This document shows positions 1-14,198 of a stretch of DNA of 14,198 nt, piece by piece. The position numbers and the translations under genes are program-made. Under the pieces are notes generated by a model that worked only from the letters and a program-made list of their open reading frames with translations, did no database searches and was not told the origin of the DNA. The stretch's first letter is position 1, and every line of letters begins with the position of its first letter. The stretch is from Paracoccaceae bacterium (GTDB lineage: Bacteria; Pseudomonadota; Alphaproteobacteria; Rhodobacterales; Rhodobacteraceae), in contig PWWF01000388.1 in assembly GCA_003561595.1 (NCBI GenBank), forward strand, positions 1 through 14,198, read 5' to 3'.

Positions 1-2072
1 ACCACGTTCAACTGGTGCCTCTCGGCGGCTTGGCCGGTAGGTCCGGCCATCAACGCGGCCACATGGCCGAAACGGAACCGCGAATCCACCTCCATGACCT
101 CATCCGCGCAGACCTCCCTGCCATTGAAGCGGAACCGCAACCTGTTGCCCTGTTTGATCGCCTGCACAACCTGCGGTTCACCGAGCACAGCTGACACCCG
201 TTCATGGCAAAAGTGGTCGAAGTATCCCCGTTGGAGCGCAAGGTTCTGTCGGTCCGCCGCATATATGTTAAGATTCGCCATCCCACCCGGAAAAATATTA
301 TACATGAAGAAGATACCAGTCGCGGTGCCCTCCTCATCGGTAACCGAACTGAGGGAAAGCCCGGAATTCCAGGCGCGGAGCCTGTCCGGATCCTGCCGTT
401 GCATCTGCGCGGTGAAGACAACATCATTGGCGCACCATGGGGCCGATGCACACGCCCAGGTGCCCGACCCGTCACCGCGCAGGCGCAGCGTGTTGCCCTG
501 CCGATCGCGGTGGCCCAGAACCTCGCGCCATGACATGACCTGTTCCTCGGTGCCAAAGCCCCAGCCACGCAGCAGGTCTGGCCGGTTCAGATAAGCGCGC
601 GCGCGTCCCATGGTGATACGGGGCCGGGCCACCATATCCCGTGCGACGGGAACCCCGGTGCAGGCCAGCGCGCGCTCGATCGCGGTCACGCTTGCCGATG
701 GCCGGAACGACCGGAGCATTGCAAACGCACCGGCCACATGCGGTGCGGCCATCGAAGTGCCGGTCTTCGATGTCAGCGCGCGACGAGGCGCGGGCTGGGT
801 CTGGGACGAATCCGCTGCCATGATTGATCGGCCCGGTGCCAGGAAAGCCACGGTGCTGTGATGGTTGGAACTGGTCCAGACCTCGTCATCCAGCGTTGTG
901 TTTCCGACAGCCATGATGGAAGAAATGCAGGCAGGCGCGCCAATCGATCCATCGGTCGAGCCGTTGCCGGTGGTTGCAATGACGGCCACGCCTAGCGACC
1001 TGAGATTGTTGGCGGCAGCGGCAAGTCCGGGGAACTCTTCGTCACATTCTCCGTCAAAGCGCGGTCCGTTGGTGCCTGTGCCCAGGCTCATGTTGACGAC
1101 TGCGATATTGTTGCGCCGTTGCCAGTTGGCAGCCTGCTCCAACCCGAGTTGGACATCGGTCCATGACGCGACGATGCAGGGCGTCAGCGGGTTGTTGCCA
1201 CAGTTGTCGCGTTGCCGAAAGACATTGATCGGAATGATGTCGGCATCGCGCGCCATACCATGCGACATCGGCGGGTTCCCGAGATGCCCCCCGGCAATTG
1301 CGGCCACATGCGTTCCGTGCCCACACCCATTCGTGTCGGGGTCGCAATCCACCCCGGCCACGCCGCTGAACGGGGTGATCTGGGATGTTTCGCCATTCGG
1401 GCATGTGCTGGCGTGTGCAGCTGACTGTTCTGTATTGGAGAAACAGGCAGAAGCGGGGATCTTGGTGTTGAACTGAGGATCGGAAAACGCGAGATGGCCG
1501 CGCCAGACCCCGCTGTCGAGAACGGCAATTGCCTGACCGCGACCGCTGGCCCGAAGATTGGGCAGCCCCACCCATAGCCGCCGTGCATCGACATGGGCTG
1601 TGGACTCGCTCAGATCAAGATCGAAGGTGATGCTCTCGCGTATCGTGTCAATACCCTGCATCGAAAGAAGTGCCTGCAGATCCGCTTCATCCACTCTGAC
1701 AGTCATGAAGGGCACCATGCGGGCCGGGTTGAGCACGGCCCCCTCGCTCAGACGCGCCGCGACGCGGGAATTCGCGCGGTCGATACGGGTATCCTGTGCC
1801 GCGATCTGTGCGGAGTCCAATTCGCCATGGACCACGAAATCCACATCCAGCCCGACAATCAGAACGAGGGCACCTTCCGCCCGGACACGGTCGAGCAAAC
1901 TGGCCGCATCTGTCGTGACATAGTTGCCGTCCGGATCGGACATCATGAGAGACGGCCCGTCCTGCGCCTGAACGCCCGCCACAGGACCCAGACTAAGTGC
2001 AAAGGCGATTACCAGCGCCCTCGTGCATGTCGTGCTGCGCCGGGAAAATTGATCGTAGCTGAAACGGAACAT
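1..2072 (-). CDS. Secreted S8 (subtilisin-family) serine protease, 3' end cut by window
   Basis: I translated this frame by hand: it is open from ATG 2072-2070 to the window edge, 690 residues with no stop. Residues 1-37 look like a Sec signal peptide (Arg pair at 11-12, hydrophobic stretch 20-33, cleavage near VQA-Q). Residues ~38-165 resemble an I9-type inhibitory propeptide. The catalytic domain (~170-500) carries Asp186 (AVLDSGV), His252 (GCGHGTHVAA), oxyanion Asn370 (TTGNGS) and Ser440 (GTSMAAPHVAG), so it should be active. Residues 500-690 form a C-terminal region I do not recognise. The part after the signal peptide has 13 cysteines, suggesting disulfides formed in the periplasm. An AGGGG Shine-Dalgarno lies about 10 bases before the ATG. 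It follows gspF on the same strand, which makes it a candidate substrate of that secretion system (inference). The family call is very secure; the substrate role is not. Confidence 0.95.
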   Translation of the reverse strand, partial: MFRFSYDQFSRRSTTCTRALVIAFALSLGPVAGVQAQDGPSLMMSDPDGNYVTTDAASLLDRVRAEGALVLIVGLDVDFVVHGELDSAQIAAQDTRIDRANSRVAARLSEGAVLNPARMVPFMTVRVDEADLQALLSMQGIDTIRESITFDLDLSESTAHVDARRLWVGLPNLRASGRGQAIAVLDSGVWRGHLAFSDPQFNTKIPASACFSNTEQSAAHASTCPNGETSQITPFSGVAGVDCDPDTNGCGHGTHVAAIAGGHLGNPPMSHGMARDADIIPINVFRQRDNCGNNPLTPCIVASWTDVQLGLEQAANWQRRNNIAVVNMSLGTGTNGPRFDGECDEEFPGLAAAANNLRSLGVAVIATTGNGSTDGSIGAPACISSIMAVGNTTLDDEVWTSSNHHSTVAFLAPGRSIMAADSSQTQPAPRRALTSKTGTSMAAPHVAGAFAMLRSFRPSASVTAIERALACTGVPVARDMVARPRITMGRARAYLNRPDLLRGWGFGTEEQVMSWREVLGHRDRQGNTLRLRGDGSGTWACASAPWCANDVVFTAQMQRQDPDRLRAWNSGLSLSSVTDEEGTATGIFFMYNIFPGGMANLNIYAADRQNLALQRGYFDHFCHERVSAVLGEPQVVQAIKQGNRLRFRFNGREVCADEVMEVDSRFRFGHVAALMAGPTGQAAERHQLNV

Positions 2073-2114
2073 GGTGAGCACCCCTGAAAAAAGATTTGTT
2101 GTTAACTTCCCGAT

Positions 2115-2143
2115 CCAATAACATAATTCGAGCTTTCCGGCAA
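2115..2143 (-). promoter_or_regulatory. Weak candidate promoter for the S8 protease
   Basis: Reading the minus strand, TTGCCG (2143-2138) and TATTGG (2120-2115) are separated by 17 bases, inside a locally AT-richer stretch in an otherwise GC-rich gap. The match is 4/6 to the -35 and only 3/6 to the -10 consensus, so this is tentative. If real, the protease can be expressed apart from the gsp operon. Confidence 0.25.
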
Positions 2144-2180
2144 TTTCGGCGGTGCAGGGGCCGCGCGCGTCGGGGTTCCG

Positions 2181-2196
2181 CGGGCCATCTGGCCCG
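2181..2196 (-). terminator. Short GC hairpin after gspF, possible weak terminator
   Basis: CGGGCC-ATCT-GGCCCG is a perfect 6-bp stem with a 4-base loop, 16 bases past the gspF stop codon. No T-run follows on the minus strand, so it is not a classical intrinsic terminator. It could slow polymerase, protect the 3' end of the gsp message, or be chance in GC-rich DNA. Confidence 0.3.
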
Positions 2197-2212
2197 TCAA
2201 AGCCGTCGCGCC

Positions 2213-3430
2213 CTATCCGCCCACCATGCCCTGCATGTCGAAAATGGGCAGCAGGATCGCCAGCACGATCACCAGCACCATTGCGCCCACGACGATCATG
2301 GACAAGGGCTCCAGCAGCACGCTCAGGCGCTTGCGCTCGGTGCGCAGCCAGCTTTCGGCCAGTTGTGCGGCGCGGCTGCTCATCGGGCCCAGCCGCGCGC
2401 TGGACTCGCCGGTTTCAAGCAACTGCCGCTCGACCGGGTGCAGGAAATCCAGGCCCATCAGTGCGCGGGCCAGATTGTCGCCCCGGTCCAGCGCGGCAAC
2501 GGCCCCTTCGGCCTGGCGGCGGTGGCGGGCCACGGACAGCCCCGCGCCCGCATGTTCCAGTGCTTGCGGTAGTGGCACGCGGCTGTTGATGACCAGCGCC
2601 AGCGTGCGCAGATACTGCGCCGCCGCCGCCATGCGCATCAGCCGCCCCACCAGCGGCAGGCGCAACAGCACCCGGTCGCGCTGCGCCCGCCATGACGGAA
2701 TGCGCGCCGCCGCCACGACCAGCGCCACCAGCCCCGCCAGCGCCACCGCGATCACCGGCCAATGCGCCGCGATGCCATCCACGATCCCCAGCACGAACAA
2801 AGTCAGCGGGGGCAGGGGCTCTCCCGAGGCTTCGAACATGCCGACGATTTCGGGGGCGACCGTGACCATAAGGATCGCGCAGACCGCAATCGCCATTACC
2901 GTCACGAAGGCCGGATACAGCAGCGCCGAGGTCACTTGCGCCCGCTCTCCCAGCGCGGATTCCAGATGCTCGGCCAGCGTGTCGAACACGGCCGCCATCT
3001 CGCCCGACCGTTCGGCAGCCGCGAGCGCGGCGATATACCAGGGCGGCAGATCGCGCGCCGCCAGCGCCACGGCCTGCGACAGCGCGGCCCCTTCCAGAAG
3101 CTGCGCGCGCAATTGCGCCGCAAAGCCCTGAATGCGCCGGTCAGGGGCGGCATCCTGCACCGCGGCAAGGGCGGCATCCAACGCCAGCCCCGCCCCCAGC
3201 AGCACCGCCATCTGCCGGGTAAAGACCGCCAGCATGTCGCGCCCGATCCGCGCGCGTCGCCCGCCCAGACGCAGCCCACCACCTGCGCCCGCCGTCTGCG
3301 CGCGGATATCGCCGGGCAAGAGCCCCATCGCCCCGATCCGGGCCGAGGCATCGGCGCCATCCTCTGCCAGCACGACACCGCGCTGCACACGACCCTCGGC
3401 CGTGTAGGCGGTATAGGCAAAGGATTTCAC
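2213..3430 (-). CDS. gspF: Type II secretion inner-membrane platform protein GspF
   Basis: This is the polytopic inner-membrane platform protein that couples the GspE ATPase to pseudopilus assembly. It is 405 residues, the normal GspF length. Two T2SSF repeats are visible, at about 67-191 and 270-394, each including the helical stretch around a GESS/ERSGE-type motif (ERSGE 140-144, ETGES 339-343). Hydrophobic segments lie at about 172-193, 222-242 and 373-397, the usual three-helix topology. The start is GTG, not ATG: its GTG overlaps the TGA of gspE as GTGA (3427-3430). There is no convincing Shine-Dalgarno, which points to translational coupling with gspE. It is the last recognisable secretion gene in the block; gspG would be expected next but is not here. 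PilC of type IV pili is the main alternative, but the neighbours support GspF. Confidence 0.95.
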   Translation of the reverse strand: MKSFAYTAYTAEGRVQRGVVLAEDGADASARIGAMGLLPGDIRAQTAGAGGGLRLGGRRARIGRDMLAVFTRQMAVLLGAGLALDAALAAVQDAAPDRRIQGFAAQLRAQLLEGAALSQAVALAARDLPPWYIAALAAAERSGEMAAVFDTLAEHLESALGERAQVTSALLYPAFVTVMAIAVCAILMVTVAPEIVGMFEASGEPLPPLTLFVLGIVDGIAAHWPVIAVALAGLVALVVAAARIPSWRAQRDRVLLRLPLVGRLMRMAAAAQYLRTLALVINSRVPLPQALEHAGAGLSVARHRRQAEGAVAALDRGDNLARALMGLDFLHPVERQLLETGESSARLGPMSSRAAQLAESWLRTERKRLSVLLEPLSMIVVGAMVLVIVLAILLPIFDMQGMVGG

Positions 3431-4956
3431 GGATCAGGGCCGATGACGCGAAACAGCTCTTCCGCGCTGGTCGCCCCGGCGGCCACCTTTTCCAGCCCCA
3501 GCCGGTACAGCCCGTCAAGCGAACTGACGCTCAGCCCCGCACCGCGCAGCGCGACGCGCAACTGGTGCTCGGAGGCGCCCTGATCGATTGCAGCGCGGAT
3601 ATCGTCGCTGATTTCCAGAATGTCGAACACGCCGACGCGCCCGCGATAGCCCGCGCCCTCGCAATGCGGGCAGGGCGTATCGCCGCCTTCGGTCGCGGAC
3701 CATATCTGGTCGGGCACTTCCAGCCCGGCGCTCTGGAACCGCTCGGCCATCTCGGCGTCAGGCGGGTGCGGGCGCGCGCAGTCGGGGCAGAGCCGGCGCA
3801 GCAGGCGTTGGGCGATCACCCCGCGCAGGGTGGCCGAAATCAGGTAATTGTCCACGCCCAATTCGCGCAGCCGCACGATGGTCGAGAGCGGGTTGTTGGC
3901 ATGGACCGAGGAAAAGACCAGATGCCCGGTCAGCGCGGCCTCTGCCGCGACCTGCGCGGTTTCGCCATCGCGGATCTCGCCCACAAGGATGACATCGGGG
4001 TCCTGCCGCAGCACCGACCGCAGCCCGCGCGCGAATGTCATGCCGATCTCGGAATTGACCTGACATTGCGAGATGCCGGGCAGTTCATACTCGATCGGGT
4101 CCTCGACCGTCAGGATGTTGCGCTGGCGCCGGTCGGCAAGCTGCAGCAGCGAATACAGAGTCGTCGTCTTGCCGCTGCCAGTGGGGCCCGTGGCCAGGAT
4201 GATGCCATCGGGCTGGCGCGCCAGCCGGTTGAGCATGTCCTGCTGCGCGGACGCCATGCCCAGATCCTCGGGCGCCATCAGCCCCGCGCTGCGGTCCAGC
4301 AGCCGCAGCACGATCCGCTCGCCATAAGGGCCCGGCAGGGTCGAGATGCGCACATCGACCGCCTTGCCCCCCAGCGACAGCGCAATGCGCCCGTCCTGCG
4401 GCAGCCGCGTCTCGGCAATATCCAGCCCCGACATGACCTTGAGCCGTGACACGACACGCCGCGCGGGCACATCCGCGCGATCAAACGCCTGTTGCAGGCT
4501 GCCATCGACCCGGATGCGCGCGCGCAGCCCCTCGCCATGCGGCTCTATATGCAGGTCGGACGCGCCGACCCGCATCGCGCGGCGCAGGATCTGGTTCACC
4601 AGCTTGACGACGGGCGCTTCCTCGGCATCTTCCAGCAGGTCGCGCGGGGCGGCATCGCGGATTTCGCCGTCATATTCGAATTGCAGCACATCCTGCGCGA
4701 TCTGCCCCTGATCGCGGTCATAGACCCGCGTCAGGCGGTCCTGAAAGGCGCGGGCCTCCAACGCTTGCGGGTCCAGTTCGCTGCGGGCCAAGGCGCGGGC
4801 CAGCCGCAGCCCCTGCGCGCTGGCCTCGGGGCCGGTGACAAGCTGGCCGCCATCCAGCACGACCTGATGATCGCGCGCAAAGGCAAAGGGCAGGGGGTGG
4901 CGCTGTGCGGGTCCGGGTGCGCCGCTGTCCGGTTTGTCCGCCTTATTGCCCGACAT
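3427..4956 (-). CDS. gspE: Type II secretion ATPase GspE
   Basis: This is the cytoplasmic hexameric ATPase that powers pseudopilus assembly. It is 509 residues, typical for GspE. In order it shows an N-terminal GspE/N1E-like region (~20-105), the N2E core, Walker A GPTGSGKT (257-264), the Asp box around VEDPIEYE (284-291), Walker B with VILVGEIRD (322-330), the His box LTGHLVFSSVHANN (342-355), and a tetracysteine zinc site made of CPDC (390-393) and CPHC (429-432). The zinc site is a hallmark of GspE/PilB rather than the retraction ATPase PilT. ATG at 4956 lies inside the 3' end of gspD, overlapping it by 14 bases, with no clear ribosome site, so translation is probably coupled to gspD. All catalytic motifs are intact. 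Confidence 0.97.
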   Translation of the reverse strand: MSGNKADKPDSGAPGPAQRHPLPFAFARDHQVVLDGGQLVTGPEASAQGLRLARALARSELDPQALEARAFQDRLTRVYDRDQGQIAQDVLQFEYDGEIRDAAPRDLLEDAEEAPVVKLVNQILRRAMRVGASDLHIEPHGEGLRARIRVDGSLQQAFDRADVPARRVVSRLKVMSGLDIAETRLPQDGRIALSLGGKAVDVRISTLPGPYGERIVLRLLDRSAGLMAPEDLGMASAQQDMLNRLARQPDGIILATGPTGSGKTTTLYSLLQLADRRQRNILTVEDPIEYELPGISQCQVNSEIGMTFARGLRSVLRQDPDVILVGEIRDGETAQVAAEAALTGHLVFSSVHANNPLSTIVRLRELGVDNYLISATLRGVIAQRLLRRLCPDCARPHPPDAEMAERFQSAGLEVPDQIWSATEGGDTPCPHCEGAGYRGRVGVFDILEISDDIRAAIDQGASEHQLRVALRGAGLSVSSLDGLYRLGLEKVAAGATSAEELFRVIGPDP

Positions 4957-6910
4957 TGGTCTGCAGGCGCGGGGGCAGGGCCGGATAAAGCCGTTCGCGC
5001 ACCACCTTGTCCACGAAAAGCGAATCGAAGGGCTGGTTCAGATCGACCCCGTCAAAGGGAAACCCGCTGCGCTGGGGCGAGGGGCGGCGCTGCGGATCGC
5101 GCTGGTTGATCTGGCGCGTCACCGATTCGGACCTGCGGGCGATGTCGCGGGTCACCGACTCCGCATCCTGACCCGAGCGGATCACGCGCGGGCGCAGCAT
5201 CACCAGCAGCACGCGCTGTTCCTCATCGACATTCGAGGACCGGAACAGATTGCCGATAAGGGGCAGGTTGCCCAAGCCCGGAACGCGCTGATCCGAGGTG
5301 CGCGAGCTGTCCTCCATCAACCCGCCCAGCACGATCACCCGGCCATCGCCGACCAGCACATTGGTCGCCAGATTGCGCCGCGCCGTGATCTCGCCCCCCG
5401 CCGCGGCAGAGGCGCCGGTCAGGTTGGACGCCTCTTGTGCGATGGCCATGCGCACCTGATTGTCGCTTGTGATCTGCGGGCGCACTTTCAGCGACAGGCC
5501 GACATCGCGCCGTTCGATGGTCTGAAACGGACGCTCGGGCGTCGCGCTGTCGCCCACTGTTGCGAAAGAGCCTGTGACAAAGGGCACATTCTGCGCCACC
5601 ACGATTTCGGCTTCCTGATTGTTCAGCGTCGTCACGGCGGGGGTAGAGAGCAGCCGTGTGCTGCGTTCGCTGGCAAGCGCACCCAGCAGCCCCGCGAAAT
5701 CGGTGCCCCGGACACCGACGGCACCACCGCTTCCGAAATTGGGCGTATTGCCCGACGCAGCTGCACTCAACAGCCCCAGAAGCGAACTGCGCCCATCCAG
5801 CGAAAAAGAGGTGCCGCCCCCGATCGCGTCATTCAGAATGCCGCCGAACTGCACCGAAATGTCCGAAAAGCTGCCCGCCGACAGCTCGAAGATGACAGCC
5901 TCGATCAGCACCTGCGCGGGTTCGCGATCCAGCGCGCGCACAGCATTGACGATATCCTCGATCTCATCCGAGGGCGCGCTGATCAGCAGCGCATTCGTTT
6001 GCGGTTCGGCCGTGATGCTGGCCGCGTTCGAACGGTCGTCATTCTCGCCCAGTTGCGGCAGGGATTGGCGCAGCACCTCGGACAGGGGCTCGGCCTCGGC
6101 ATAGTCCAGATGCACCACGCGCGAGACGCGGCGCCGCTGCGGCGTGTCGATCTGGCGCAGCAGATCGCGCACGCGCTGGCGGAAATCATTGGGGCCGGAC
6201 ATGATGATCGCGTTCGCGCGCCGGTCGGCAGACAGGCTGGCCCCACTGGGCACGATGGCCAGAGTCTCGATGACCGTCACCGTGTCCTCGGCATCGGCAT
6301 GGTCCAGGCGGATCGTTTCGATCTCGCGGGTGCGCGGGGTGTCGAGCTGGCGGATGACATTGGCGATCCGGTCGATATTCTCGCGCCGGTCCGACAGCAC
6401 CAGCAGCCCTGACGAATACACCGGCGTCAGCACGGCGTCATCGGGCAGAAGCGGCAGCACCACATCAAGCAGCTCATCCAGATTCTCGCTCTCGACCGGC
6501 AGGACACGGGTCTCGAATGTGCTGCGCCCGCCGGGGCCAGAGGCGCGCAGGCTGCGCGCATCGCGCATCGGCACGATCCGGTCCACATCATCCCCCGGCA
6601 CGATGGTCAGGCCGTTCGATTCCAGCACATTGTCAAAGATCTCGAGGATCGCATCCGCCGAGACGGGCGCCGGGGCCACAACACTTACAGTGCCCGACAC
6701 CCCAGGATCCACAATGAAATTGCGCTGCGTCTGTTCGGCCACGATCTCGACAAAGCTGCGCAGTTCGACATCGCGCAGATCAAGCCGGATCTCAGCGCGC
6801 GCAGGCAGCGCGGACAGCACAAGCGCCAGAAGCACCAGCAGCCATGCCGCGCCCCGCAGGGCCGCAGGCCGCGCCCATGACGCTGAATGTACGGGGTGTT
6901 GTGGCGTCAT
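4943..6910 (-). CDS. gspD: Type II secretion outer-membrane secretin GspD
   Basis: This is the outer-membrane channel of the secretion system. From ATG 6910 it has 655 residues, normal for GspD. Residues 1-39 form a signal peptide (arginines, then a leucine/valine-rich core, cleavage at ARA-E). The N0 domain follows (~40-112), then N1 (~132-190), N2 (~196-258), N3 (~263-345) and the secretin barrel (~350-575). The barrel includes the family signature VPGLGNLPLIGNLF (543-556). A polar tail of about 75 residues follows. An in-frame TTG at 6922-6920, directly after the gspC stop codon, could add four residues. I prefer the ATG because it gives a cleaner signal peptide, though neither has a strong ribosome site. 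I see no obvious pilotin-binding S-domain, so how the secretin reaches the outer membrane is open. Confidence 0.95.
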   Translation of the reverse strand: MTPQHPVHSASWARPAALRGAAWLLVLLALVLSALPARAEIRLDLRDVELRSFVEIVAEQTQRNFIVDPGVSGTVSVVAPAPVSADAILEIFDNVLESNGLTIVPGDDVDRIVPMRDARSLRASGPGGRSTFETRVLPVESENLDELLDVVLPLLPDDAVLTPVYSSGLLVLSDRRENIDRIANVIRQLDTPRTREIETIRLDHADAEDTVTVIETLAIVPSGASLSADRRANAIIMSGPNDFRQRVRDLLRQIDTPQRRRVSRVVHLDYAEAEPLSEVLRQSLPQLGENDDRSNAASITAEPQTNALLISAPSDEIEDIVNAVRALDREPAQVLIEAVIFELSAGSFSDISVQFGGILNDAIGGGTSFSLDGRSSLLGLLSAAASGNTPNFGSGGAVGVRGTDFAGLLGALASERSTRLLSTPAVTTLNNQEAEIVVAQNVPFVTGSFATVGDSATPERPFQTIERRDVGLSLKVRPQITSDNQVRMAIAQEASNLTGASAAAGGEITARRNLATNVLVGDGRVIVLGGLMEDSSRTSDQRVPGLGNLPLIGNLFRSSNVDEEQRVLLVMLRPRVIRSGQDAESVTRDIARRSESVTRQINQRDPQRRPSPQRSGFPFDGVDLNQPFDSLFVDKVVRERLYPALPPRLQTNVGQ

Positions 6911-6922
6911 CGCGGCAGACAA

Positions 6923-7753
6923 TCACTGACCCATTTCTTCGGGGGTCGGCTCGTGATCGTCATCGACCATGTGGTCCCATTCGTCATCCCATTGCCCATC
7001 CCAGCCGTCATCCCAGTCTTCGTCTTCCCATTCCTCATCCAGAATGTCCTGCATGGCCCGGTCCCAGGCATCGTCCCACGCGTCGTCCCAGTCATTCAGC
7101 CATTCGTCATCGGACAGGTCATCATTCAGAGCAGAAGGGTCGGGGTCACTGGATACCGCCTCTGACGCGGCTTCGGCAAGCTGCATGTCCACAGGGTGAT
7201 CGTCCCCTGTCCCCGGCGGTACAATCAGCGAGATGCTGCCATCGTCATGCTGAACGCGCACTTCGCCCGCGGCAACTGCGATCACCTCGCCACCGCCGGG
7301 CAGGATGCTGCCCTGCCGCACGATCAGTTCCTCGCCCGAATCGCGGATAAAGGCCAGATCGGCCCCGGCACCCAGGACAGAGCCGGTCAGCCTGTAGTCT
7401 TCGCTCACGAAGGGACCCGGATCAGGTTCTTCAGGGGCAGCGGCCTGAGGCTCGGGCGCGGGTTCCTCGACTTGCGGCGGCGGGGGGGTGCCGAAAATGG
7501 CGGGCCAGTCTGCGCCCAACGTGTCGGTGGATGCCTGCCGGATGGTCGGGGCAGTCGCGCGATCCGGCAGATGCGCCCGTAACGGCGCCCCCCCGAGCGG
7601 CGCAATCTCGAGTTGCGCATCCGGGGTGCTGCGCGCAAGACCTTTGCCGGGGTGCAGCACGCCCGCGCCAAACACCCCGAACGCGACGGCACCTAGGGCA
7701 AGGCTGACATGCCCGAACGGGCGCAGCGTGCGATTGGGACGAAGCTGTTTCAA
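6923..7753 (-). CDS. gspC: GspC-like type II secretion protein with Asp/Trp-rich tail
   Basis: This is probably the inner-membrane protein that contacts the secretin. It has 276 residues. A short basic cytoplasmic end (KQLRPNRTLR) precedes one membrane segment (~14-35) and a Pro/Ala/Glu-rich linker (~85-115). A compact beta-rich HR-like domain (~118-181, with YRLTGSVLGAG and LIVRQGSILPGG) matches the GspC/PilP homology region. There is no PDZ or coiled-coil domain. Instead residues ~205-276 are highly acidic, with nine tryptophans at 218, 222, 226, 230, 242, 247, 251, 255 and 259. The start is TTG, supported by AGAGG five bases upstream (about 7757-7763) and by the lack of an in-frame ATG before an upstream stop. 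It is first in the operon and its stop directly precedes the gspD start region. The gspC identity rests on architecture and position, not strong sequence identity. Confidence 0.8.
   Translation of the reverse strand: MKQLRPNRTLRPFGHVSLALGAVAFGVFGAGVLHPGKGLARSTPDAQLEIAPLGGAPLRAHLPDRATAPTIRQASTDTLGADWPAIFGTPPPPQVEEPAPEPQAAAPEEPDPGPFVSEDYRLTGSVLGAGADLAFIRDSGEELIVRQGSILPGGGEVIAVAAGEVRVQHDDGSISLIVPPGTGDDHPVDMQLAEAASEAVSSDPDPSALNDDLSDDEWLNDWDDAWDDAWDRAMQDILDEEWEDEDWDDGWDGQWDDEWDHMVDDDHEPTPEEMGQ
6968..7102 (-). repeat. 12-bp periodic repeat encoding WDDx units in GspC tail
   Basis: On the plus strand the block shows recurrent tcCCA cores at 12-base spacing, the complement of TGG (Trp) codons. In protein this gives four Trp at four-residue spacing (218-230) and a second run of four (247-259), with Trp242 between and Asp/Glu filling the gaps. 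It is in frame and uninterrupted. Such a tract can change length by replication slippage in 12-bp steps. Confidence 0.85.
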
Positions 7754-7756
7754 AAG

Positions 7757-7763
7757 ACCTCTG
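7757..7763 (-). promoter_or_regulatory. Ribosome binding site for gspC deciding the TTG start
   Basis: The minus strand reads AGAGG a few bases before TTG 7753-7751. No ATG in this frame lies between the TTG and the upstream in-frame stop, so this site is the main support for the non-ATG start. Confidence 0.55.
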
Positions 7764-7775
7764 CAAACATGACCG

Positions 7776-7799
7776 GATATTCTGAAGGACCAGAATATC
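7776..7799. repeat. Perfect 9-bp inverted repeat in the gspC leader
   Basis: GATATTCTG, a 6-base spacer, then CAGAATATC: both arms match exactly. It ends 23 bases upstream of the gspC start and just before its ribosome site, downstream of the candidate promoter. It may be a dimeric-regulator operator or an RNA hairpin in the leader. No T-run follows, so it is not a simple terminator. Confidence 0.75.
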
Positions 7800-7818
7800 G
7801 CACTGGGAACCTTGTTGC

Positions 7819-7847
7819 ATAATGAACCTTTCGCACCCGTCGATCAA
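7819..7847 (-). promoter_or_regulatory. Candidate sigma-70 promoter of the gsp operon
   Basis: On the minus strand TTGATC (7847-7842) and CATTAT (7824-7819) are 17 bases apart, each 4/6 to consensus. Transcription would start near 7812, giving a leader of about 60 bases that contains the inverted repeat and the gspC ribosome site. The spacing and placement are good; the hexamer matches are moderate. Confidence 0.45.
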
Positions 7848-8117
7848 GCATTGCCTGTATCGGGGTCCGCGCGTTCTGAAGGCGGTGCATTCCGGCATCA
7901 GGAGGCCCTTGTTGCGACGGCCATGGTTGAAAACCAATAGGCAAACAGCGCTTGATCTTGTAGCCTGACAGCGAAAACACTTGCACATCTTGCGGACGGG
8001 CTGTTCCGGCGCCTGTCCCGGTGCCAATGATAACAGGTCGGCCTGACCCGGCATCCACCCGGGCGCGCAGGTCGCGGATGAGGGGTGCGGAACGTGGTCA
8101 ATCTGGTACATGATGCG

Positions 8118-8651
8118 ATGCGGCCTGCGGGGTGGCGCGCGCGGTCAGCAGGCTTGCCGATGCTGTGTGTCGCGATGCTTCTGGCGTCCTGCGAACCGGC
8201 GGGCACGCTGGGCGGGTCGAGCGGGTCGGCGAATGATTATCTGGTCGCGCGGCAGGCGCTCGAGACCGGGAATTACGCGCTGGCAATCCGGCGGTATGAG
8301 CGGTTGATCGACCAGGCCGGCACATCGGCCGGGCGGCTGCAACTGGAATACGCCCACAGCCTGCTGCGCGCCGGGCAGTTCGAACGCGCGATCGCAAGCA
8401 GCAGCGAATTGTTGCAGGCATCCGATGGCAGTGTTGCCGCCAATGCGCGCGCCGTGCGCGGGACCGCGCGGCATGAAGCGGCGCGCAGCATGATCGCGCA
8501 GGGGCAATCGGGGTCCGAGGCGCGCAGCCTGCTCGAAGGCGCGCGCAGCGATCTGGGTGCCTTCGTCGAAAGCCACCCGCAGCTTGATGCAGCGGGCGCC
8601 ATGGCCGCGCGGTTGCAGATGATCGCTTCCGATCTGCGCGGACTGGGCTGA
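8118..8651 (+). CDS. Outer-membrane-type lipoprotein with TPR-like repeats
   Basis: From ATG 8118 the product has 177 residues. Residues 1-24 are a lipoprotein signal peptide with a basic start (RPAGWRAR), a hydrophobic core and the lipobox LLASC, giving lipidated Cys25. A Gly/Ser linker follows, then helical repeats of TPR character: about 40-66 (ARQALETGNYALAIRRYERL) and 70-103 (LEYAHSLLRAGQFERAIASS), with further helices to about 150. I cannot name the family. It diverges from gspC and precedes matB by 39 bases. TPR lipoproteins (PilF/PilW) are pilotins for the type IV pilus secretin PilQ, so a role with GspD is a reasonable guess, not shown. An alternative GTG start at 8085 would add 11 residues before an already complete signal peptide; a GGATGAGG lies just ahead of it, so it cannot be excluded. 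Confidence 0.8.
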   Translation: MRPAGWRARSAGLPMLCVAMLLASCEPAGTLGGSSGSANDYLVARQALETGNYALAIRRYERLIDQAGTSAGRLQLEYAHSLLRAGQFERAIASSSELLQASDGSVAANARAVRGTARHEAARSMIAQGQSGSEARSLLEGARSDLGAFVESHPQLDAAGAMAARLQMIASDLRGLG

Positions 8652-8690
8652 GCGCCGCGCCGCCTGCGACAGGACTTGAAGGCACGATCC

Positions 8691-10205
8691 ATGACCAACC
8701 CGCTCTATGATGCCCTGTTCGCGCCGCTGTCGGGGCAGGACCGGGGGTTTCTGCACCTGCCCGATGGCCGCGAAATAACGGCCGCAATGTTTCACGACAT
8801 GACAGCGCGAAGCGCGAATGCCCTGCGCGCCACCGGGCTGCGGCCCGGGGACCGGGTTGCCGTTCAGGCCAGCAAAAGCCCCGAGATGCTGGCGCTTTAC
8901 GCGGCGACGGTTGCGGCGGGGCTGGTGTTCCTGCCCCTCAACACCGCCTATACCCCCGAGGAACTGGCCTATTTCCTGTCCGATTGCGCGCCAGGCCTGC
9001 TTCTGGTGGACCCGGATCGCGCGGACATATGCGCGCCTCTGGCCGAGCGCCATGGCGCGCGCCTGGAAACACTGGGGCCGGGCGGCAGTTTCGACGCATT
9101 GGCAGCAACGCAATCCACCGACTTCACGCCCGCACCGCGCGCGGGCGATGATCTGGCCGCGCTGCTATACACTTCGGGCACGACCGGGCGGCCCAAGGGC
9201 GCGATGCTGACGCAGAAAAATCTGCTCTCGAATGCCCGCGCGCTGGTCGATGCCTGGCGCTTTACCCGCGATGATGTGCTGCTGCACGCGCTGCCGATCT
9301 TTCACACGCATGGGCTGTTCGTGGCCACCAATACAGTGGCGCTGGCCGGGGCCAGCATGCTGTTTCACCCAAGGTTCGATCTGGACCAGATCATCGCGGC
9401 CCTGCCGCGCGCCAGCGTGATGATGGGCGTGCCGACCTTTTATACGCGGCTGTTGCAGGACAGCCGCCTTGACCGCGATCTGGCCGCGCATATGCGGCTT
9501 TTCATCTCGGGCTCTGCGCCGCTTCTGGCGGAAACGCATCGCGACTGGCAGGCGCGCACGGGCCATGCGATACTGGAACGCTACGGCATGACCGAAACCA
9601 ATATGCTGACCTCGAACCCGTATGAGGGCGCGCGCCGTGCGGGCACTGTGGGCCAGCCCCTGCCGGGGGTGGAGCTGCGGATCGCCGCGCCCGACACCGG
9701 CACCCCGCTGCCGCAGGGCGAGACCGGCATGATCGAGGTGCGCGGCGCATCGGTCTTCAAGGGTTACTGGCAGATGCCGGAAAAGACCGCCGAGGAGTTC
9801 CGCGCGGACGGGTTCTTCATGACCGGCGATCTGGGGCGGATCGATGGGGACGGCTATCTTCATATCAGTGGACGGGCCAAGGATCTGGTCATCTCGGGCG
9901 GATACAACATCTATCCCAAAGAGGTCGAGCTGCTGCTGGACGAGATGCCGGGCGTGCTGGAAAGCGCTGTGATCGGCGTGCCGCACCCCGATTTCGGCGA
10001 AGCGGTGCTCGCGGTGCTGGCGCCGACGGGGGCGGGGCCGGATATTGCGGCGATCCGGGCCGCGATTGCCGACAGGCTGGCGCGCTACAAGCAGCCCAAG
10101 GCCTATGTCACGCTGCCGGAACTGCCGCGCAACACGATGGGCAAGGTGCAGAAAGCCGCCCTGCGCAAGGATTACGCGCAGTATTTCACGGACGAGTGCA
10201 CGTAG
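8691..10205 (+). CDS. matB: Malonyl-CoA synthetase MatB
   Basis: This acyl-adenylate-forming enzyme makes malonyl-CoA from malonate, ATP and CoA in the cytoplasm. The product has 504 residues, the usual MatB length. Visible core motifs are the P-loop YTSGTTGRPKG (160-170), HALPIFHTHGLF (199-210) and MGVPTFYTRLL (245-255) typical of MatB, RLFISGSAPLL (269-279), ERYGMTETNM (296-305), the adenylate-binding TGDLGR (378-383) and the C-terminal PRNTMGKVQK (479-488) with the catalytic lysine. By memory it follows the Rhodopseudomonas palustris enzyme almost motif for motif, which separates it from other acyl-CoA synthetases. ATG 8691 has GAAGG about 8 bases upstream; a TTG at 8676 in frame is less likely. 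No malonyl-CoA decarboxylase or malonate transporter is adjacent in the window. It may share a transcript with the lipoprotein gene before it. Confidence 0.95.
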   Translation: MTNPLYDALFAPLSGQDRGFLHLPDGREITAAMFHDMTARSANALRATGLRPGDRVAVQASKSPEMLALYAATVAAGLVFLPLNTAYTPEELAYFLSDCAPGLLLVDPDRADICAPLAERHGARLETLGPGGSFDALAATQSTDFTPAPRAGDDLAALLYTSGTTGRPKGAMLTQKNLLSNARALVDAWRFTRDDVLLHALPIFHTHGLFVATNTVALAGASMLFHPRFDLDQIIAALPRASVMMGVPTFYTRLLQDSRLDRDLAAHMRLFISGSAPLLAETHRDWQARTGHAILERYGMTETNMLTSNPYEGARRAGTVGQPLPGVELRIAAPDTGTPLPQGETGMIEVRGASVFKGYWQMPEKTAEEFRADGFFMTGDLGRIDGDGYLHISGRAKDLVISGGYNIYPKEVELLLDEMPGVLESAVIGVPHPDFGEAVLAVLAPTGAGPDIAAIRAAIADRLARYKQPKAYVTLPELPRNTMGKVQKAALRKDYAQYFTDECT

Positions 10206-10214
10206 CGCGCACGC

Positions 10215-13200
10215 TCACCCGACCAGCACGCGATTCAGCACATCGGCCAGTTCCTGCCGCTGCACGGGTTTGGGCAGCGTATCGACAAAGCCCGCATCCA
10301 GATAATCGGTCACCTGATCGGCCATGACATTTGCGGTCGCGGCGATGGCCACGGGCATGGGGCGGCCTGTGCGCGTGGCCTCTTCCTGCATGACGCGCAG
10401 CGCCTGCAAGCCGTCCATGACCGGCATCGAGATATCGAGCAGCATCAGATCGAACTCCTGCGCGCGCCACATGTCGCAGGCCTGCGCGCCGTTTTCGGCA
10501 AACCCGGCCTCCAGCCCCGAGCGGGACAGCATCAGCGCCAGAATCCGGCGATTGGTCGCATTGTCATCGGCCACCAGCACCCGGCGCCCGCGCAGCTTGT
10601 CGGCAAAGCCCGCGACCGGGTCCGTGGCCGATGTATGCAGTGCGCCCGTCTCATCCGGATCCGACGCGACGGGCACGACAAGGCGCACATCCGCCCGCGT
10701 GCCCTTGCCGGGTGCGCTGTCGATGCGGATTTCGCCCTCCATCAACTCGATCAGATTGCGCACGATGGTCATACCCAGCCCGCTGCCGCCAAAGCGCCGG
10801 GCCGTGCCGGCCTCTGCCTGCTCGAACGCGTCGAAGATGCGCTGCACCTCTTCGGGTGACATGCCGATGCCAGTATCGATCACGCTGAACTGCAACTCGC
10901 GCGGGTTGGTCGAATCGATCAGCAGCGTGACCGACCCCGATTGCGTGAACTTGATCGCATTGCTGAGCAGGTTCTGCAGGATCTGGGTGATGCGGGTTTC
11001 ATCGCCCATCCGGCGATTGCGCGCGCCGGGCGCAAAACGGATGGCAAACTCGACCCCCTTGGTCCGGGCATTCGCGCCATGCAGCGAATCGATCCGGTCA
11101 ACCAGTACATCCATGTCGAAGGGCCTGCGCTCCAGCCCCAGCTTGCCGGCCTCGACCCGCGAGATGTCCAGAATGTCATTGAGCAGGCTCAGCAGACTCC
11201 AGCCTGAATCGCGGATGGTGCGCAGCATGGCGGCCTGTTCGGGGCTCAGATCGGTATCGGCCAACAGATCGGCCATGCCCAGAACGCCGTTCAAGGGCGT
11301 GCGGATCTCATGGCTCATATTCGCGAGGAACTGGGATTTGGCGCGGCTCGCCGCCTCTGCCGCCTCTCGCGCGCGGATCATCTGGGTGATGTCCACGCGC
11401 AGGCCCACGCGCCCGCCCTCACGCGTGCGGGTGTCGCGGATGCGCACGATCCGCCCATCGCTGAGGGTTTCTAACAGCGGTGCATCCGCCAGATGGTGCC
11501 GGGCCAGCGCGGCGGCGATCCATGCCTCGGGCGTGCGATCACTGCGGTCGACGATCTCGCCGGTCTCGATTGCGCGGAGCAGGATATCCTCGAATGTCGC
11601 GCCCGGCACCGCAGCGGCAGAGGTCTTGGGATAGAGCTTGCGATAGCGCTCATTCGCCAGCACCAGCCGGTCCTCGGCGTCGAACAGCAGGAACCCGTCA
11701 TCCAGCGCCTCGACCGCATCGACAAGCTGTTGGCGCGCGCGGGCGGCCGCAGCTTCGGCAGCGCGGGCCTGTTCGCGGGCCTGATGCAATTCGGTGATGT
11801 CGACGCGCAGCCCGACGCGCCCGCCATCGGCGGTGGGCTGTTCCACAAGCTGCAGGACCGTGCCATCGCACAATTGGGTGACCATGGGCTTGCCTTCGCG
11901 ATAGGCGCTCAGCCGTTCCTGCAGCCATTCCTCTTCACGCCCGATCGCTTCGACATGATACCCCTTCTCGAGCCCGGCGCGCATGATCTCTTCCAGCCGA
12001 ATGCCGGGAACGATGGCATCCGCGTTGTCCTTGTGCAATTCGCGGTAGCGCTTGTTGGCCAGCACCAGCCGTTCCTGCGCGTCGAAATGGACGAACCCGT
12101 CCTTGAGCGCATCGATCGCCGCGACCAGCCGTTCCTGCCCGGTCTGCCGCCCCAGCGCCGTGGCGTAGTTGTTGGCCGTGGTTGCCAATGCATCGATGAC
12201 CTGCGGCGACCAGCACTCGAACGCGCCATCCCCCGGCATGTGACAGATATCAAAGCCCAGAAACCCGACGCAATGGCCGTCCGTGATCACCGGAAAGCAG
12301 CACATCGCCGCAATCTCTTGCGGGTGCAGAAGCGCGCGCTCCGCATCGGTCATGTGCTCGGGCGATTGCAGCACGAAATCGGTGCCCTGAATCAGATGGC
12401 TGGCCAGACGCTCCATCCCGACTGCGCGCAGGTTCTGGTTTTGCAGGATGGGGTTGTCGACATAGGGCTCGACCGTGCCATCGCACCATTCAAACACCTG
12501 CGAGATGATGCAATCGGCCCCGTCATCCCCGATCCTGACAGGCTGGTCCAGCATGAAGGCATAGGCGCGGTTGACCCCTGCGGCCTGTCCCACCTCGGCC
12601 AGCATGCGGTTGCGTTCGGTCACGATGTCATCGCTGCCCAGCAGACGCCGCGAGAAATCGGCGACAGCGGCCAGAATATCCTGCTGGCGTTTGTATTCGG
12701 TGATATCGGTCTCAACAGCGATAAAGCCGATATGCCGCCCGTCCTGATCGCGCCGGGGCTGGATTTCCAGACGCAGCCAATATTCCTGCCCCGAGCGGCT
12801 GCGGTTCAGGATATCGGCGGCCACAGGCTCGACCTTGTCCAGCGCGCGGCGGATGCGGGCGACCGTGTCGGGGTCGGTACGGTCACTGTGCAGAAAGCTG
12901 CCGGGCTTGCGTCCGCGCACCTCATCCAGGCGCCAGCCGGTGCGGGCCTCAAAGGCCGGGTTGACCCATTCGATCAGCCTGTCGCAGTCGGAGATGATGA
13001 CCAGGTTGCGGGTATGGCGCGCGACATCGCCCAACTGCTTGAGGGTTTCGAGCTGTTCGCGCTCTTCGGTGATATCCTCGATGAAATTGCAGATGATCCT
13101 CCGCCCGTCCTGTGACGGCAGTTGCATCCCGCGCAGCCGCACCGGATAGCGCCCGCCATCCTTGTGCGCAAAGGTCTTCGTGACCGGGCTGTAGGCGCCG

Positions 13201-14198
13201 GTTTCGCGCAGCTCTGCCTGCGCGCGGGTGTCATCCTCCGGGTTTTCGGGCAGTGCGAAGTCGCGGTAGTCGAGTTTCAGAAACTCCTCACGCGTATAGC
13301 CGGTCGGGGCCAGCATGGCGGGGTTGATATCGATTGTGGCGCCGGTGTCCAAATCATGCAGCGCAATGCCCACCGGCGAGGTTTCGACCAGCGCGGAATA
13401 GAGCGCATCGCGTTCGCGCACCTGCGCCTCGGCTGCGACCCGGTCGGTTATGTCACGGATGACAAACACATAGCCCGGTTTCTGACCGTCAAAATCGGCC
13501 ATGCGCGGGGCGGCGGACAGCTCGAACCAGGCCGGGCCATGCGGCATGTCAAGCTGGTAGTCCAAGCCCCGGACACTGCCTTTTTCCGTCGCGACCTGCA
13601 TTGCGTGCCGGCTCAACTCTGCCAGTTCCGGGGGCAGGACCTCTTCGGGGGTGCGGCCCAGAAACGACTCTCGCATCAGGAGCAGCCCCTGTTCATGGCT
13701 TGTATGGGCGTCAATGTAGCGGCCTTCGGCATCAAGCTCGAGCAGGATATCGGGCATGGTGTCCAGCTTCGCGCGCAGACGCGCCTGGGCGCGGCGCAGT
13801 TCCTGTTCCTCGGCCTTGCGCTCGGTGACGTCGCTGACAACCGCGATGGTCGTTGCCAGCTTGCCATCCGCATCATGGCGCGCCCGGATCGAGGCGCTGA
13901 CCCAGATCGCGGTGCCATCGACGCGCAGCAGGCGCAGATCATGCCGCGCGGCCACACCCGATGCCCGCGACAGAAACAGGGCTAATGCTGTTTCGCGGCG
14001 CGACGCTTCCAGAAAATCGGTAAAGGCGCGGCCTGTCAGATCCTTCACGCCCAGCATTTCGGCCATGCGGGGGTTGGCATAGCGGGTGGTGCCTGTCGCA
14101 TCCAGCACCCAGATCCCGTCATGCGCCAGTTCGACGATATCGGCGAAATCGCACAGGCGCGCGCGTTCATCGCGCCGCGCGGTGATATCCTCGAACGT
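10215..14198 (-). CDS. Multi-PAS hybrid sensor histidine kinase, 5' end outside window
   Basis: The frame is open from the right edge to TGA 10217-10215: 1,327 residues visible. I number from the first codon in the window (14198). The fragment opens with the end of a PAS/PAC unit (EDITARRDE), then PAS modules at about 18-127, 140-250, 265-378 and 390-502, a GAF-like region (~513-685), and two related PAS modules (~690-805 and ~824-941). The kinase core has the HisKA box SHEIRTPLNG with phospho-acceptor His963, the N box NLLSNAIKFT (~1075), G1 DTGIGM (~1108) and G2 FGGSGLGM (~1135). The C-terminal receiver shows Asp1211/Asp1212, phospho-acceptor Asp1255 (LLDISMPVMDG) and Lys1310. No membrane segment is seen in this part. 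There is no Hpt or DNA-binding output, so a separate phosphotransfer partner is expected. The signal sensed is unknown. Confidence 0.95.
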   Translation of the reverse strand, partial: TFEDITARRDERARLCDFADIVELAHDGIWVLDATGTTRYANPRMAEMLGVKDLTGRAFTDFLEASRRETALALFLSRASGVAARHDLRLLRVDGTAIWVSASIRARHDADGKLATTIAVVSDVTERKAEEQELRRAQARLRAKLDTMPDILLELDAEGRYIDAHTSHEQGLLLMRESFLGRTPEEVLPPELAELSRHAMQVATEKGSVRGLDYQLDMPHGPAWFELSAAPRMADFDGQKPGYVFVIRDITDRVAAEAQVRERDALYSALVETSPVGIALHDLDTGATIDINPAMLAPTGYTREEFLKLDYRDFALPENPEDDTRAQAELRETGAYSPVTKTFAHKDGGRYPVRLRGMQLPSQDGRRIICNFIEDITEEREQLETLKQLGDVARHTRNLVIISDCDRLIEWVNPAFEARTGWRLDEVRGRKPGSFLHSDRTDPDTVARIRRALDKVEPVAADILNRSRSGQEYWLRLEIQPRRDQDGRHIGFIAVETDITEYKRQQDILAAVADFSRRLLGSDDIVTERNRMLAEVGQAAGVNRAYAFMLDQPVRIGDDGADCIISQVFEWCDGTVEPYVDNPILQNQNLRAVGMERLASHLIQGTDFVLQSPEHMTDAERALLHPQEIAAMCCFPVITDGHCVGFLGFDICHMPGDGAFECWSPQVIDALATTANNYATALGRQTGQERLVAAIDALKDGFVHFDAQERLVLANKRYRELHKDNADAIVPGIRLEEIMRAGLEKGYHVEAIGREEEWLQERLSAYREGKPMVTQLCDGTVLQLVEQPTADGGRVGLRVDITELHQAREQARAAEAAAARARQQLVDAVEALDDGFLLFDAEDRLVLANERYRKLYPKTSAAAVPGATFEDILLRAIETGEIVDRSDRTPEAWIAAALARHHLADAPLLETLSDGRIVRIRDTRTREGGRVGLRVDITQMIRAREAAEAASRAKSQFLANMSHEIRTPLNGVLGMADLLADTDLSPEQAAMLRTIRDSGWSLLSLLNDILDISRVEAGKLGLERRPFDMDVLVDRIDSLHGANARTKGVEFAIRFAPGARNRRMGDETRITQILQNLLSNAIKFTQSGSVTLLIDSTNPRELQFSVIDTGIGMSPEEVQRIFDAFEQAEAGTARRFGGSGLGMTIVRNLIELMEGEIRIDSAPGKGTRADVRLVVPVASDPDETGALHTSATDPVAGFADKLRGRRVLVADDNATNRRILALMLSRSGLEAGFAENGAQACDMWRAQEFDLMLLDISMPVMDGLQALRVMQEEATRTGRPMPVAIAATANVMADQVTDYLDAGFVDTLPKPVQRQELADVLNRVLVG

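Follow-up and report, generated by a model that had tools for sequence, protein, structure and literature searches.

The window analysed here, a stretch of 14,198 nucleotides from a Paracoccaceae bacterium (contig PWWF01000388.1, positions 1 to 14,198), encodes part of a type II secretion system (T2SS). The subject of this report is its gspC gene, whose product ends in a tail rich in tryptophan and acidic residues. The features concerned are the following:

6923..7753, minus strand: gspC, a 276-residue open reading frame (ORF) with a predicted TTG start
7655..7714, minus strand: GspC transmembrane helix, residues 14-33 (predicted helix and hydrophobic stretch)
7214..7411, minus strand: GspC HR domain, residues 115-180 (six beta strands; block values of the predicted local distance difference test, pLDDT, of 88-97 from residue 121)
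6926..7213, minus strand: GspC post-HR tail, residues 181-276 (96 residues with 39 Asp/Glu, one Lys/Arg and nine Trp)
7064..7102, minus strand: first Trp run (W218, W222, W226, W230)
7028..7030, minus strand: W242, invariant in alignment A3 among the six rows that have a Trp tail
6977..7015, minus strand: second Trp run (W247, W251, W255, W259)
4943..6922, minus strand: gspD, secretin (TIGR02517, 425 bits, exceeding the cut-off of 351)
3427..4956, minus strand: gspE, ATPase (TIGR02533, 515 bits, under the cut-off of 630; PF00437)
2213..3430, minus strand: gspF, inner-membrane protein (TIGR02120, 304 bits, under the cut-off of 424; PF00482)
3..2072, minus strand: subtilase (Peptidase_S8) reaching the contig end and, judged by eye, apparently bearing a signal peptide; candidate cargo
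8085..8651, plus strand: divergent TPR lipoprotein adjoining gspC (TPR matches); candidate pilotin or T2SS-accessory protein

The identification as GspC, made in a first-pass annotation of the window, was borne out by a profile built from 38 relatives, which matches the GspC of PDB entry 7oio (E 9.8e-6), by the fold of the HR domain (structural match 3oss_C) and by the gene neighbourhood. A single N-terminal membrane helix is predicted, and gspD, gspE and gspF directly follow gspC; the trio occurs together in the 36 stretches that were compared, with gspD and gspE about 3 kb apart in L078. The window protein reached 17 bits with NF041515 against a cut-off of 150, which is a database threshold and not a biological feature, and had no T2SSC match in Pfam; its relatives matched PF11356 in 28 of 38 cases (E<=0.1) and NF041515 in 32 of 38 (E<=0.01). 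Apart from its tail, the window protein is a recognisable GspC.

Composition and conservation of the tail

The segment singled out by the first-pass annotation, 6926-7111 on the minus strand, was placed correctly and corresponds to residues 215-276 of the 276-residue ORF. As counted there, nine tryptophans lie within 42 residues (218-259), with gaps of 4, 4, 4, 12, 5, 4, 4 and 4. At least six gaps of four arose in none of 200,000 shuffles of residues 203-276; with shuffling confined to the tryptophan span they arose in three of 200,000, and any single gap value recurred that often in 30 of 200,000. The seven other proteins of the window contain 32 tryptophans in 4257 residues (0.75%). Against this background nine in 72 residues give a binomial P of about 4e-9, an optimistic value because the stretch was picked for being rich in tryptophan. 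All nine have Asp or Glu within two residues. Since both Asp (GAT, GAC) and Glu (GAA, GAG) codons are mixed, the tail is not a fresh DNA repeat.

No PDZ domain was found by Pfam in the window GspC, as the annotation had claimed, and the only match in the tail was KRI1-like (E 0.25, far below the cut-off); PDZ models match six of the 38 relatives. The claim that the tail stands in the position of a C-terminal domain is likewise supported.

The GspC of L002, the locus of the near sister genome G318, is 91% identical and retains all nine tryptophans. Relative to L002 the ratio of nonsynonymous to synonymous substitution rates (dN/dS) is 0.09 for the tail, 0.14 for the whole of gspC, 0.03 for the HR domain, 0.10 for gspD and 0.09 for gspE, at a tail dS of about 0.39. 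Judging from these rates, the tail is under purifying selection among near relatives and not free to drift at short range. An origin as by-product of an antisense gene was considered and rejected: the antisense frame is open in the window and in L002, but the synonymous excess belongs to the sense frame. The tail is a real, selected and unusual C-terminal feature.

In P0002 (69% identity) seven of these nine tryptophans are present, as counted by eye. Farther off there are four in L003, five each in L006 and P0004, and three within the acidic end of P0005. L002 shares the strict spacing of four, P0002 does so for the most part, and the more distant relatives do not. Of the outcome that the annotation had named as speaking against its proposal, a tail fully variable or absent among homologues and without effect on secretion, the family-wide part applies, as the tail is variable or absent there; inside the genus, however, it is conserved. 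In L003, L006, P0004 and P0005, but not in the window GspC, the acidic Trp tail comes after a basic motif, RRSF(L/I)xQ.

The annotation had furthermore proposed a helix carrying a tryptophan stripe, which is not supported in view of the varying gaps in the relatives (4-5-5 in L003, 9-3-3-5 in L006, 9-3-5-5 in P0004, 6-6-6-6 in L058) and the low pLDDT of the tail. In L003, L006 and P0004 no gap value recurs beyond what shuffles often give. AlphaFold2 models the window tail at block pLDDT values of 47-70, with a single low-confidence helix at residues 218-242 that is not to be trusted. Because the make-up is kept while the register is not, and the pLDDT is low, a disordered sticker-and-spacer chain is favoured over a striped helix. 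The low pLDDT suggests that the tail is probably disordered in the cell, and any helix may be restricted to the window species.

Distribution of the tail among relatives

GspD was detected in four of 37 genomes of the genus (E<=1e-60), all four with a Trp/acid tail on GspC, and in 28 of 394 genomes of the family (about one per genus). In a GspD tree of 32 rows, which leaves out L005, L030, L058 and other later-fetched loci of the G222 genus and in which tails were classified by eye, all four rows with a Trp tail cluster together (99/100). Their cluster nests in a less certain one (84/65) that includes acidic tails lacking Trp runs. The G222 genus has GspD in 12 of 18 genomes, and GspC was located in 11. 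One of these, L058, carries five tryptophans at an exact spacing of six, which occurred in none of 20,000 shuffles. Also in this genus, the GspC tails of L063 and L065 consist of DPYAQ repeats with varied codons and end in GIGR; related endings, FGISR and FGLSR, occur in L062, L066 and L067.

Among 38 aligned GspCs there are six Trp-acid tails, five acidic tails and seven other tails (these three classes assigned by eye), 14 proteins ending at the HR domain and six with PDZ. This alignment omits gspC genes not located or cut (L026, L030, L035, L046, L060), the distant second-type T2SSs L049, L050 and L052 (PDZ by eye), the duplicates L005, L020-L023 and L057, and the later-found P0003-P0005. 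In one clade of family T2SSs, comprising 14 of the loci L033-L048, GspC stops directly after the HR domain.

A search of 5.8 billion proteins with the whole GspC matched the window's own sequence and one other. The search with the tail alone that the annotation had proposed returned the same two (seven candidates). A profile of the six Trp-tailed GspCs, with scoring limited to the 7996 candidates that had the most words in common, added P0003-P0005, of which P0003 closely corresponds to the L006 protein. The DNA pattern for W-acid-acid-x-W, a narrow one that missed the tail of G307, matched four times in the own genome, always inside gspC, and occurred in five of the 37 genus genomes, where three matches in G297 and G322 are not acidic Trp tails. 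There was therefore no sign of a general tag on many proteins. A class-wide search of 385 genomes with a Trp-tail profile matched seven (E<=0.001), including the own genome and one family genome; the five outside the family had no Trp tail in their ORFs.

The own genome (G000) and the other three T2SS-positive genomes of the genus are drafts. The GspG family was not found in G000 or G318 (E<=1e-5), and in G318 GspL was not found either. An incomplete T2SS in G000 was considered, and is countered by GspL on contig C100 together with adjoining gspK-like and gspM-like ORFs and a gspJ-like ORF at the contig end (the assignments of J, K and M were made by eye, on gene order and sequence). As C100 ends right beside the gspJ-like ORF, gspG to gspI probably lie beyond the contig break. 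A GspG-family match at G295:C77:8206-8523 (L125, L128) lies in a genus genome without a GspD match (E<=1e-60) and points to a different or partial system. Elsewhere in the window, a 1297-residue multi-PAS hybrid histidine kinase with a receiver domain (10215-14108, minus strand) is encoded near an AMP-binding enzyme (8676-10205, plus strand).

Possible partners of the tail

We tentatively favour, at somewhat less than even chances, a function of the tail as a disordered, multivalent acidic-aromatic arm that docks a periplasmic partner, most likely exported cargo. It sits at the C-terminal position where other GspCs have a PDZ domain or a coiled coil. The HR domain would keep it close to the secretin, its tryptophans would serve as stickers, and many weak, fuzzy, multivalent contacts would recruit or dock the partner, for which the subtilases encoded downstream of gspF are the lead candidate. 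Both the docking role and the choice of cargo are proposed by analogy, the latter with the PDZ domain of EpsC, which captures a VesB-derived fusion. The subtilase gene at 3-2072 (minus strand), which is not in the default ORF list, follows gspF in the window; in L002, gspF is followed by two genes of the subtilase family. The family (E<=1e-30) was detected in three of four T2SS-positive genus genomes versus none of 33 T2SS-negative ones (Fisher P 5e-4, uncorrected for relatedness). Two more members are encoded in the own genome, on C195 and C393.

Several observations weigh against this reading. The subtilase copy beside gspF in L002 (G318) has an in-frame TGA near its start, which puts its export signal in doubt. 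The family is absent from G305 at E<=1e-30 (a genome 71% complete), the match in G307 is partial, and L003 and L006 carry the tail with no subtilase beside gspF. Since G000 and G318 are near sisters, the association rests on few independent events. The subtilase is itself acidic (net -13 from residue 36 on), so that a contact with the tail would not be charge attraction. The distant Trp tails are poorer in tryptophan (four in L003, five in L006, three in the acidic end of P0005, compared with seven of nine in P0002), and 14 of the 38 aligned GspCs have no C-terminal domain, so that a T2SS does not need such an arm. In a bolder form, which we consider rather unlikely, the disordered tail would have replaced a folded cargo-recognition domain of the T2SS in this lineage and would capture folded cargo through many weak Trp contacts; such tails might have arisen anew in sister groups, with other periods of Trp or Tyr. 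To our knowledge no disordered T2SS substrate receptor has been described earlier, and this one, if true, would be the first.

Alternatively, the tail might be the ligand of the TPR lipoprotein encoded divergently next to gspC. The two would form a W-acidic/TPR pair, as kinesin light chain and its cargo adaptors do, and would link the platform in the inner membrane with the outer membrane or a pilotin. Y-acidic motifs bind kinesin TPRs according to the cited part of PMC6214655. The lipoprotein has a BamD-like TPR fold with peptide-binding TPRs among its structural matches, and its lipobox Cys36 is invariant in 28 rows. Of the 36 stretches compared, 31 have a TPR match (27 of 32 without the four repeats), including every stretch with a located non-PDZ gspC (only seven of the 14 tail-less loci among them); in the 13-14 kb stretches of L071-L074 and L076 the gene was not found, four of these having a PDZ GspC while gspC was not located in L074. 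However, it also adjoins tail-less GspCs and two PDZ GspCs, so that its main role cannot need the tail and it appears to be a general partner. TadD is reportedly a lipoprotein pilotin of a Tad secretin (PMC10499894). Arg 125, 129 and 134 are invariant in 18 of 18 tail-bearing TPR proteins and each present in one of seven tail-less ones, counting L092 (G438) as tail-bearing and L086 (G351) as tail-less with gspC located in neither. This Arg gain is confined to one group of related loci and accompanies Asp gains at 156 and 183, with which it may form internal salt bridges, and the net charge of the TPR protein in Trp-tailed species is near zero (-1 to +2, L003 including its signal peptide). Such a pairing seems unlikely.

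Docking on the N-domains of the secretin, one of the targets suggested in the first-pass annotation, appears very unlikely. The HR domain of GspC binds GspD N0 (PMC3169554, in part), which places the tail near the secretin, and the N0-N3 net charge of other Trp-tailed loci is within the range of other clades (L003 -10, L006 -12, L090 -14). Nevertheless, N0-N3 is acidic in all 34 compared GspDs and, at -22 in the window species and its near sister L002 against -5 to -16 in the other 32, disfavours a charge-driven contact. No electrostatic complement to the tail was found in GspD or the TPR lipoprotein when net charges were compared. The acidic GspD of these two species would also fit a weakly specific acidic extension that has no partner of its own and serves solubility or spacing in a periplasm of high salt and high pH, as would the tails that vary or are missing across the family and the Trp number that differs within the genus. 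Two relatives' records are Natronohydrobacter metagenome-assembled genomes, and this name is associated with soda lakes. Yet solubility would not require nine tryptophans among the last 72 residues, every one of them is kept at a tail dS of about 0.39, and at least four persist despite spacing changes in L003, L006, P0004 and L058, so we consider this explanation doubtful. Binding of cations such as calcium, of peptidoglycan or of lipid head groups, which the annotation had also listed, would position the platform. Asp at the density seen in the tail could chelate divalent cations, and Trp is able to stack on sugars or to lie at membrane interfaces. Pfam, however, found no known metal- or wall-binding domain, and soda brines are poor in divalent cations (PMC4766312, in part), which makes this role improbable.

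Comparison with known GspC endings and related systems

It is not settled how the T2SS recognises folded cargo, and suspicion falls above all on the variable C-terminus of GspC. A tail that is short, chemically simple and probably disordered, in place of PDZ, would make this question accessible to point changes that separate charge from tryptophan. According to the cited parts of PMC12369372 and PMC11981180, EpsC and OutC have a PDZ domain in this region, XcpP has a coiled coil or a single helix, XpsC a single predicted helix (2P region), and LspC neither PDZ nor coiled coil. The annotation took a PDZ or coiled-coil region to be the usual end of GspC, which holds for well-studied systems but not generally, given LspC (PMC12369372) and the 14 of 38 GspCs that stop at the HR domain. 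Secretion of VesB in Vibrio requires the PDZ domain of EpsC, which captures a fusion with the VesB immunoglobulin fold (PMC12369372). The window GspC shares with PDZ-type GspC, EpsC and OutC the membrane helix, the HR domain, the gene position beside gspD and a C-terminal region of variable kind, and differs in having a low-complexity Trp/acid tail and no PDZ. Like it, XcpP, XpsC and LspC are without PDZ, whereas no Trp/Asp tail is described for them in the cited parts of these two papers. The variability of this region is already known; its Trp/acid form appears to be new. Full-text searches of open-licence literature, with most subscription journals outside their range, yielded no described equivalent in the text retrieved.

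By analogy, the closest bacterial precedent is the histidine kinase WalK, whose disordered C-terminal tail has a Trp amid acidic residues and is needed for partner binding (PMC9087282, in part); in contrast to the window GspC it has a single conserved Trp, its partner is the response regulator WalR, and no homology is claimed. The closest physical model, again by analogy, is the acidic exposure model of activation domains, in which aromatics stand among acidic residues of a disordered chain (PMC10550315, in part). These domains belong to eukaryotic transcription factors and the likeness is physical only; if the docking reading is true, the GspC tail would be a bacterial periplasmic case of the acid-plus-aromatic logic known from them.
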